Assembly (NCBI GenBank): GCA_947594025.1
Contig: CANQDZ010000013.1
Span: forward strand, 1-38,036
DNA from: Candidatus Gastranaerophilales bacterium
Lineage (GTDB): Bacteria > Cyanobacteriota > Vampirovibrionia > Gastranaerophilales > Gastranaerophilaceae
Direction of reading: 5' to 3'
DNA: 38,036 nucleotides
The stretch's first letter is position 1, and every line of letters begins with the position of its first letter. Shown one piece after another: positions 13,431 to 18,308 of this stretch. The notes under the pieces were generated by a model. It did not search any database. It was not told the origin of the DNA and was given only the letters and a program-made list of their open reading frames with translations. Position numbers and translations under genes: made by a program.

Positions 13431-14503
13431 TCCTTCAAAAATTCACAAAGAATATTGTTTGAAACAAGCAAACCTTTAGTTGTGAGCTTGTAACCTTGGT
13501 TTGTTTTTTCAAAGAAATCGGAATATTTTTGAAGAATATTCTTATACTCTTTTTCAAAATCTAAATTGTACTTGTTTTTAAACTCGGCTAAATCAATCCC
13601 GTCTTCCATTCTTAATCCCAGAAATATAAATTCCTCAAGAGTGTTTGTTTTTTCAAATTCCTTATTTTTGCATGGATTTTTGATGTATTCTTCTATTTTT
13701 CTTGTATTTGTGTATCTGCCTTCATTTAAAAATCCTGATGCCGATGTCCCAAAACCGTAATATTTTCCGCATTTCCAATAATTTATATTGTGTTTGCTTT
13801 TATATTCTCCGTTTTTTGAAAAATTTGAAATTTCATATCTCTTAAATTCAGGTTCAAGCGTTTCAAGCGCATTCAGATACATATATGCCTGAATATCATC
13901 ATTTGCAATATTTTTAGGCTTATTTTTATAGAAATAACAGCCTTTATCAATTTTAAGCCCGTAGAGTGAAAGGTGTTCTATATCCAGTTTTTTGGCAGTT
14001 TGAATATCCTTTTTAAAATCTCTAATCCCTTGGTTTGGAAGCCCGTACATCAAGTCTATGCTTACATTTTCAAATCCTGCAATTTTTGCGTTTTTAATAA
14101 CCTCAAAGGCTTCGTCCGACGAGTGAATTCTGCCGGCCTGCTTCAAAATATCATCACAAAAACTTTGAACCCCTATGCTTAACCTGTTGACACCAAGCTT
14201 CCTTAATTCCTTAAGATATTCTTTTTTCGCACTTTCAGGGTTAACTTCAACCGTTATTTCAGGATTTTCCTCAAAATTAAAATCGGATAAAATATCTTCA
14301 AAATCGCCAATACCTAAGATTGAAGGAGTTCCGCCCCCGATATACAAAGTTTCTTGGGGGGTTTTATCATAAAACATCTTTATTTCTTTTAAAAGAGCAT
14401 CCATATAAATTGTTTTAAGCTCAATTCTTTCGAATGAAGTAAAAGAACAATAATTGCATTTTTTCTTACAAAAAGGAATATGTATATATGTACTTTTTAT
14501 CAT
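13427..14503 (-). CDS. hemW: radical SAM heme chaperone HemW
   Basis: 358 residues. The radical SAM cysteines are C12, C16 and C19 (PFCKKKCNYC), followed by GGGTPS at 56-61, SIGVQSF and DLMYGLPNQ, then the C-terminal HemW domain (HNINYWKCGKYYGFG). HemW binds heme and delivers it to respiratory enzymes. The three-cysteine cluster without the fourth HemN cysteine, and the length, favour HemW over oxygen-independent coproporphyrinogen oxidase. There is no Shine-Dalgarno; a TATAAT on the minus strand ends 6 bp before the ATG. It is divergent from the SIS gene with a 20-bp gap between start codons. Confidence 0.9.
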   Translation of the reverse strand: MIKSTYIHIPFCKKKCNYCSFTSFERIELKTIYMDALLKEIKMFYDKTPQETLYIGGGTPSILGIGDFEDILSDFNFEENPEITVEVNPESAKKEYLKELRKLGVNRLSIGVQSFCDDILKQAGRIHSSDEAFEVIKNAKIAGFENVSIDLMYGLPNQGIRDFKKDIQTAKKLDIEHLSLYGLKIDKGCYFYKNKPKNIANDDIQAYMYLNALETLEPEFKRYEISNFSKNGEYKSKHNINYWKCGKYYGFGTSASGFLNEGRYTNTRKIEEYIKNPCKNKEFEKTNTLEEFIFLGLRMEDGIDLAEFKNKYNLDFEKEYKNILQKYSDFFEKTNQGYKLTTKGLLVSNNILCEFLKD

Positions 14504-14508
14504 TCATA

Positions 14509-14518
14509 TATTATAATA
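14509..14518. promoter_or_regulatory. palindromic -10 box shared by two divergent genes
   Basis: TATTATAATA is its own reverse complement. On the plus strand TATAAT is 14512-14517, and the ATG at 14524 follows after 6 bp. On the minus strand TATAAT is 14515-14510, and the hemW ATG at 14503 follows after 6 bp. Neither gene has a Shine-Dalgarno. -35 matches are weak on both sides. Confidence 0.6.
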
Positions 14519-14523
14519 CGGAT

Positions 14524-15552
14524 ATGCAGACTTTGATGGAACAAGAAATCTTAGAACAGCCTTCAATTTTCGGAGATATTGTTAAAAGATACGTAAAAGA
14601 AGGCAGTGTCTTAATTGATTTTCCAAATAAATATAAGAAAATCAATTTTATAGCATCAGGTTCGTCATATAATTGCGCAAGAATGGCAAAAAAATTCTTT
14701 AGAGATATGGCAGGGCTGGATACTTCCTGCGATTTTTCAAGTGAATTTTTGGCAAATAAAACAAATAAAGTAGATAAAAACGCTCTTTACTTTTTTATCT
14801 CTCAATCAGGTGAAACCTCAGATACCATCGCTGTTATGGAGAAAGTAAAACAAGGGGGAGCTAAAACATTTGCGCTTGTAAATGTTGAAAACTCAAAGAT
14901 GTATAAAAATGCGGATTATAAACTGTGTGTAAATGCAGGGGTTGAAAGAGCTATTGCTGCAACAAAATCTTACAGCGCATGTTTATTGTGTTGTTATCTT
15001 ATTGCTTCAAAGTTATCCGAAAAACCCTCTGAACATCTTAAATATATAACGGGAATTGGAAAAATCACAAAAGAATTTTTGCAGGAAAATAAGCAAATAG
15101 ATGAATGCGCCAAGTTTTTGAGCAAACAAAAAAGATTTCCCTTAATAGGCTATAACTATTACTATATCCTTGCAAAAGAGGGTTCATTAAAAATAAAAGA
15201 AACTTCATATATCGATGTAAATGCTTATTCGCTCGGCGAATTTGTCCACGGACATATTGCAATTCTAAACGAAATAAAAGCCATACTTGAAATCTTCACT
15301 CATGATATGGGCGAATTTGAGATGAAAAATCTTAAAAAAATAAAAGATGATTATAATCCCCAAGCCGTTGTCATTACCGATTTAAAAAGCGATGACAAGA
15401 AACACATGAGTATAGTTATTCCAAAATGCAAAAACCCCGTCTTAAAATACATATTAATTACACTCACTCTCCAAATGCTTGCACTTAAAATTGCACAAAA
15501 ACTTAAAAAGAATATTGATAAGCCGACGGGTCTTAAGAAGGTTATTGTTTAG
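14524..15552 (+). CDS. SIS-domain protein, GlmS isomerase-half homologue (sugar-phosphate isomerase/deaminase)
   Basis: 342 residues from the ATG at 14524. It corresponds to the C-terminal isomerase half of glucosamine-6-phosphate synthase, with two SIS domains, and lacks the N-terminal glutaminase domain. Matching landmarks are MEQEILEQP at the start, ASGSSYNCAR, FFISQSGETSDTIA, AATKSYSA, LKIKETSYID.NAYSLGEF.HG, and the C-terminal DKPTGLKKV. The catalytic Glu and His of the GE..HG segment and the Lys of the DKP..L.K tail appear kept, so it is probably an active amino-sugar or keto-sugar phosphate isomerase/deaminase (NagB-II/GlmD-like). An ATG at 14488 exists but would overlap the divergent hemW coding region and the -10 box. 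Its stop overlaps fabD by 4 bp. Confidence 0.82.
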   Translation: MQTLMEQEILEQPSIFGDIVKRYVKEGSVLIDFPNKYKKINFIASGSSYNCARMAKKFFRDMAGLDTSCDFSSEFLANKTNKVDKNALYFFISQSGETSDTIAVMEKVKQGGAKTFALVNVENSKMYKNADYKLCVNAGVERAIAATKSYSACLLCCYLIASKLSEKPSEHLKYITGIGKITKEFLQENKQIDECAKFLSKQKRFPLIGYNYYYILAKEGSLKIKETSYIDVNAYSLGEFVHGHIAILNEIKAILEIFTHDMGEFEMKNLKKIKDDYNPQAVVITDLKSDDKKHMSIVIPKCKNPVLKYILITLTLQMLALKIAQKLKKNIDKPTGLKKVIV

Positions 15553-18033: not shown

Positions 18034-18231
18034 CTATCTAAGGCGAACTTTTGTTCTTGCACCTTTTCCTGAAAATTCAAGTTTATCTTCACGAGCTAAC
18101 CAGCCTAAGCCCATAGCCGCAAAGTTGTCGTCTAAACTTAAATCTTTTTTCATTTTTGATGTTGTTGCTTCACCGCGTTCATTCAGGTAGTTCCAAATTT
18201 GACCTGCTGATTCGATAATTTCTTGTTGCAT
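18034..18231 (-). CDS. small winged-helix DUF2582 protein
   Basis: 65 residues. The whole chain matches the DUF2582 winged-helix pattern: AGQIWNYLNERGE, a SKMKKDLSL recognition region and MGLGWLAREDKLEF. Proteins of this family are small and presumed to bind DNA or nucleic acid; no function is established that I can name. The start has a strong AAAGGGG Shine-Dalgarno 6 bp upstream. It is a single-gene unit with its own terminator, divergent from leuD. Confidence 0.85.
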   Translation of the reverse strand: MQQEIIESAGQIWNYLNERGEATTSKMKKDLSLDDNFAAMGLGWLAREDKLEFSGKGARTKVRLR

Positions 18232-18308
18232 TGTATGCCCCTTTCTTTTATATAATTTATATTTGTATTATAATATAAACAAAAAATTTTTGTAAATGGA
18301 GTAAATGT

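Follow-up and report, generated by a model that had tools for sequence, protein, structure and literature searches.

The window, that is the whole stretch of 38,036 nucleotides analysed here, holds a divergent pair formed by hemW and a SIS-domain gene (Table 1). The HemW product is a clear member of its family, scoring 294.9 bits against TIGR00539, whose cut-off is 205.4. The SIS product carries a Pfam SIS match (1.1e-26) and aligns with GlmS models through its C-terminal half only and below their cut-offs, the glutaminase half being absent from the match. With 216.5 bits against TIGR01135 (cut-off 418.05) it does not qualify as a full-length GlmS, and no equivalog model exceeded its own cut-off for this product. 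A separate frame of 612 aa that matches the SIS query resides at C15. The first ATG of the open SIS frame, at 14488, was considered as the start and set aside, as relatives back ATG 14524 instead: in the sister species G001 the start lies in a homologous M-x-x-x-MEQEI context (M-KSI-MEQEI there, M-QTL-MEQEI here), and a Shine-Dalgarno sequence directly precedes the codon homologous to ATG 14524.

Table 1. Positions of the hemW/SIS features in the window and of similarly arranged divergent pairs elsewhere in the genome (G000).
Feature	Position	Strand	Remarks
hemW, radical SAM heme chaperone, 358 aa	13427-14503	-	TIGR00539; start ATG 14503; predicted leaderless
SIS-domain gene, GlmS isomerase-half-like, 342 aa from ATG 14524	14524-15552	+	predicted leaderless
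In-frame upstream SIS extension, alternative ATG 14488 within hemW	14488-14523	+	considered not used
hemW/SIS start-codon gap	14504-14523		20 bp
Perfect palindrome TATTATAATA	14509-14518		sequence reading
Conserved core ATTATAAT	14510-14517		within TATTATAATA; invariant in 16 species of genus g21
-10 box TATAAT, SIS gene	14512-14517	+	spacer 14518-14523 = 6 bp, then ATG; genome-wide peak at 6
-10 box TATAAT, hemW	14510-14515	-	spacer 14509-14504 = 6 bp, then ATG; 6-7 bp in relatives
Predicted SIS transcription start	14524	+	A of ATG; expected at position 7 past the -10 box
Predicted hemW transcription start	14503	-	A of ATG; expected at position 7 past the -10 box
Phosphoesterase-like gene / ispG	G000:C1:2364-2379 (L289; L290 in G001)	divergent	14 bp; overlapping boxes, each 6 bp from ATG
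Three other divergent pairs	G000:C2:11379-11401, C2:80857-80881, C7:13717-13732		boxes 6-7 bp from both ATGs

A sequence-only reading of this DNA had described a 20-bp gap centred on a palindrome that reads TATAAT on both strands, each hexamer 6 bp from an ATG, and this description proved exact when the coordinates were re-read. The two hexamers overlap reciprocally by 4 bp on opposite strands, the arrangement by which bidirectional promoters are recognised, and each places a TANNNT at -10 distance directly 5' of its start codon, as in the TA-led class of genes. None of the Shine-Dalgarno cores AGGA, GGAG and GAGG occurs in the 20-bp gap on either strand, and in the window no Shine-Dalgarno sequence precedes either of the two candidate SIS starts downstream of the box. 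Since position 7 past the -10 box is the usual point of initiation, the predicted 5' end of each mRNA is the A of its ATG. Judged from the -10 positions, the two starts would be 21 bp apart; if initiation were shifted by a few bases, a leader of 1-3 nt would result.

The promoter elements around the box are sparse. A sigma-70 scan that required a -35 box found none of normal quality for either direction at the site, and the shared core, which holds a fixed A at -14 on each strand, excludes a TGn extension, a feature that is favoured among this genome's leaderless promoters (G at -14 in 44% of them). Since the TGn extension is excluded and the usual -35 box is absent, the hemW/SIS promoter may be modest and reliant on its consensus -10 box. 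The flanks of the symmetric core are asymmetric and variable. TATTATAATA occurs three times in the window, against 0.12 copies expected, and only the hemW/SIS copy has a start codon 6 bp away on each side. Another copy, at 18266-18275, likewise separates divergent genes, namely leuD (18309) and a minus-strand frame of 66 aa (18034-18231). Both have leaders of about 30 nt with Shine-Dalgarno-like sequences, so this copy may be an ordinary bidirectional promoter.

Leaderless-type starts across the genome

A spacing of exactly 6 bp between box and start codon is common in the window's genome, of which 1.16 Mb (34% G+C) was sampled. Of 320 divergent genes, 82 carry TANNNT precisely 6 bp ahead of the ATG; each of the other spacings accounts for 8-37. 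The exact TATAAT follows the same pattern, with 23 cases at 6 bp and 0-9 elsewhere. When this genome and G001 were pooled, a Shine-Dalgarno core was found in just 1 of 101 genes with a 6-bp box, and the peak appears with ATG only, GTG or TTG starts giving none at 6 bp. The near-absence of Shine-Dalgarno sequences and the restriction to ATG make this peak a signature of leaderless genes, matching the one reported earlier (PMC3160421); like the sequence of the gap and its conservation, it is observed directly.

The possibility that this excess is specific to divergent genes was rejected. For upstream gaps of 30-60 bp, the short gaps at which the signal is strongest, a box at exactly 6 bp is present in 17 of 54 divergent genes (about 3 expected per spacing) and in 25 of 96 codirectional genes (6 of 96 at 7 bp, background 3 per spacing). 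Since codirectional genes with such gaps are likewise enriched, it looks like short gaps, not divergence, are the driver of leaderless starts, and this suggests a link between the shrinking of gaps and the loss of leaders. The core itself is frequent, with 122 copies of ATTATAAT in the 1.16 Mb, and the full arrangement CAT-N6-ATTATAAT-N6-ATG is found once, at the hemW/SIS gap. When the two spacings are varied, 7 of 168 grid cells are filled, once each, giving an expectation of about 0.04 per cell.

The shared box in relatives and at other gene pairs

The divergent hemW/SIS pair was compared in 46 species from six genera of the family. In all 46 an in-frame hemW ATG is preceded at 6 or 7 bp by a -10 box, and in 38 of them this box is part of the same symmetric core, ATTATAAT; a comparison of the gap in related genomes, suggested along with the sequence-only reading as a means of checking it, thus finds the palindrome core kept with the pair in most species. 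In 20 of these 38, from three genera, both genes are predicted to be leaderless from the core, the SIS ATG being 6 bp away; these are 18 species of genus g21, the window and G060, and the count must be read with the reservation that members of one genus are non-independent observations. In the other 18 of the 38 (G001, g52, g55 and G089) the SIS gene is leadered from the same box, with its start mostly 17-32 bp away and preceded in 13 of the 18 by a Shine-Dalgarno-like sequence (GGAGG in G001). In four g52 species the SIS start is less certain, since a different TANNNT also lies at 6 bp from an ATG that the gene might use. The seven species of genus g26 have a gap of about 40-50 bp and a separate box for each gene, 6-7 bp from its ATG, so that both genes are still predicted to be leaderless and the dyad is gone. 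The shared layout is no longer present in G274, a species of g21.

The length of the gap is also 20 bp in 16 g21 species and in G060, where the hemW start lies further upstream in frame and gives a longer N-terminus. In these 16 g21 species all eight columns of the core are invariant, and identity at wobble sites averages 0.76 in hemW and 0.72 in the SIS gene. Outside the family, members of the same order often keep the pair in divergent orientation with gaps of about 300 bp or more, which suggests an old gene order and a gap that has collapsed. The hemW gene looks leaderless also away from this neighbour: a box is found at 6-7 bp in 19 of 30 hemW loci sampled in the family and order, mostly without an adjacent SIS gene.

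Similar layouts occur at other genes. The window's genome has four further pairs in which boxes lie 6-7 bp from both ATGs and the start codons are 14-23 bp apart (Table 1). One of them, with 14 bp between the start codons, joins genes that we take, from their protein sequences, to be ispG and a phosphoesterase. Its gap reads GCTATCATACTAGC in G001 and GCTATTATATTAGC in the window's genome, so that the bases of the boxes differ between the sister species and TANNNT is retained on both strands. Much of the family seems to have a leaderless ispG: at loci placed by tblastn (L289-L311), a -10 box 6-7 bp before the ATG is present in 17 of 30 sampled, often as an extended -10 of the TGTGCTA type, and the leaderless-type box is mostly absent from order-level relatives. 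Two loci from different genera (L239 and L249) show the exact 6/6 layout at yet another pair, of 226 or 230 aa and 346 aa.

Across 288 genomes of the family the 6/6 pattern is found at 87 loci, against 26 for the off-register patterns 4/8 and 8/4 together. The 87 are a mixture of hemW/SIS pairs, spurious matches within coding sequence and other divergent pairs whose two frames are both long. About 18 of them share a coding motif, presumably from within lysyl-tRNA synthetase; nine of these were inspected, and there one side has only a frame of 7-8 aa. Five species of genus g25 (G185, G151, G131, G082 and G109) carry CATATTTGTATTATAATACAAATATG (for example at G109:C3:90468-90493). Each end of this perfect 26-bp palindrome offers a possible start codon, and the element may represent either a further promoter of this type or an operator.

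On balance we consider it rather likely that two leaderless genes on one symmetric -10 box form a recurring layout that is kept by selection in this family, the cases being hemW/SIS (about 20 sampled species), ispG/phosphoesterase (both species of the window's genus) and the other pairs. If so, the layout is close to the smallest two-way promoter, consisting of one -10 box and two spacers and nothing more.

Interpretation of the 20-bp gap

The reading that we prefer, with a probability of roughly 0.8, is that the gap is a minimal bidirectional promoter in which one symmetric box directs two leaderless mRNAs. Since neither gene is predicted to have a leader and 20 bp remain, only one -10 box fits, and the symmetry of its sequence allows both genes to use it. 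A sigma-70-type RNA polymerase would recognise ATTATAAT in either orientation, with the A of the corresponding ATG as the first base transcribed. One polymerase at a time would occupy the site, initiation probably being rare enough for both genes to be expressed in the same cell, and the relative output of hemW and SIS would be proportional to how often each orientation is taken. Such a promoter would have originated from the combination of leaderless starts, which are common in the family, with shrinking intergenic gaps. It is from the observations above that we infer the transcription starts, the use of the box in both directions and the co-expression. That one symmetric -10 box serves both genes, both of them leaderless, had been proposed from the sequence alone, and as a prediction it agrees with the genome-wide spacing and with the geometry in relatives.

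It is possible that only hemW is leaderless and that the SIS gene starts elsewhere, at ATG 14488, at ATG 14536 or from a promoter inside hemW, the symmetry on the SIS side being due to chance. The SIS frame is indeed open up to ATG 14488, and in G001, g55 and g52 the gene is leadered, mostly with a Shine-Dalgarno-like sequence. However, three observations make this unlikely: 20 species from three genera have the SIS ATG and TATAAT separated by exactly 6 bp, the G001 start aligns with ATG 14524, and in the window neither downstream candidate is preceded by a Shine-Dalgarno sequence. A perfect dyad inside a divergent gap also brings to mind a repressor operator instead of paired -10 boxes, as regulators often bind such sites. 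Yet what is both symmetric and conserved comes down in essence to the overlapping pair of TATAAT hexamers, with asymmetric and variable flanks, no regulator gene adjoins the pair, and g26, with its separate boxes, loses the dyad and keeps the 6-bp spacings, all of which renders an operator scarcely credible. It appears just as implausible that the layout is an AT-rich coincidence beside ordinary leadered promoters: strings resembling TATAAT are frequent in a genome of 34% G+C, but the genome-wide enrichment of this exact register and the persistence of the layout in many species speak against it.

The sequence-only reading had further claimed that polymerases competing for the one site would make expression mutually exclusive. 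In such a switch, a polymerase bound in one direction would shut off the other, and a cell would express either hemW or SIS. The overlap of the boxes by 4 bp does preclude simultaneous binding. However, this overlap is lost in g26, where two separate boxes leave each gene leaderless, and no regulator site is visible in the hemW/SIS gap. Nor, to our knowledge, is there any link that would make a heme chaperone and a sugar-phosphate SIS enzyme alternatives to each other. Exclusion is not a conserved feature, because the SIS gene is leadered from the same box in g52, g55 and G001 or has its own box in g26. At all five bidirectional promoters tested in E. coli, basal activity was too low for the two directions to interfere with each other; strong activation of one was needed before it could repress its opposite (PMC12825309). 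A mutually exclusive switch thus finds no support in the E. coli precedent or in the relaxed geometry of relatives, and we regard it as very unlikely. Competition between polymerases at the hemW/SIS site is physically real and probably rare, and it should not be equated with mutual exclusion.

Relation to known promoters and leaderless genes

In the open-access literature we found no report of two divergent leaderless genes with one common -10 box and no paper linking leaderless genes to Melainabacteria. Bidirectional promoters and leaderless genes are each known; their combination on one -10 box appears to be new. Bidirectional promoters of bacteria and archaea have, by definition, starts 7-25 bp apart, with preferred distances of 18, 10 and 23 bp in E. 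coli (Warman, Grainger and colleagues; PMC12825309, PMC10268837). As is predicted for the hemW/SIS site, where the spacing would be 21 bp, they drive divergent transcripts from a shared pseudo-symmetric -10 element, but here both transcripts are predicted to be leaderless and the promoter would take up the whole intergenic region. The TA-led genes of Zheng et al. (2011, PMC3160421), a class kept apart from Shine-Dalgarno-led genes, resemble hemW and SIS in that a TANNNT precedes the start codon by about 10-12 bp; the word "divergent" is absent from that text, and divergent pairs on one box are not treated in it.

Two characterised loci come close. In Anabaena sp. PCC 7120, cvkR and cas12k are both leaderless and, as predicted at hemW/SIS, only a spacer separates their two starts; unlike hemW/SIS, that spacer measures 82 nt, which is too long for both genes to use a single -10 box, and the system is under repression by the regulator CvkR (PMC9938897). 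The divergent lysG and lysE genes of Mycobacterium tuberculosis have overlapping promoters and a leaderless transcript from the second lysE promoter, but their gap is 108 bp, it holds a LysG operator, and only this one transcript is described as leaderless (PMC5648196). The hemW/SIS site joins bidirectional -10 boxes and leaderless mRNAs, which are usually studied separately, and it points to a lower limit for intergenic regions, with 20 bp between start codons here and 14 bp in the ispG case. Its relatives form a natural series, from both genes leaderless on one box, through one gene leadered from the same box, to two separate boxes, which allows the contribution of a leader to be studied on an unchanged promoter.
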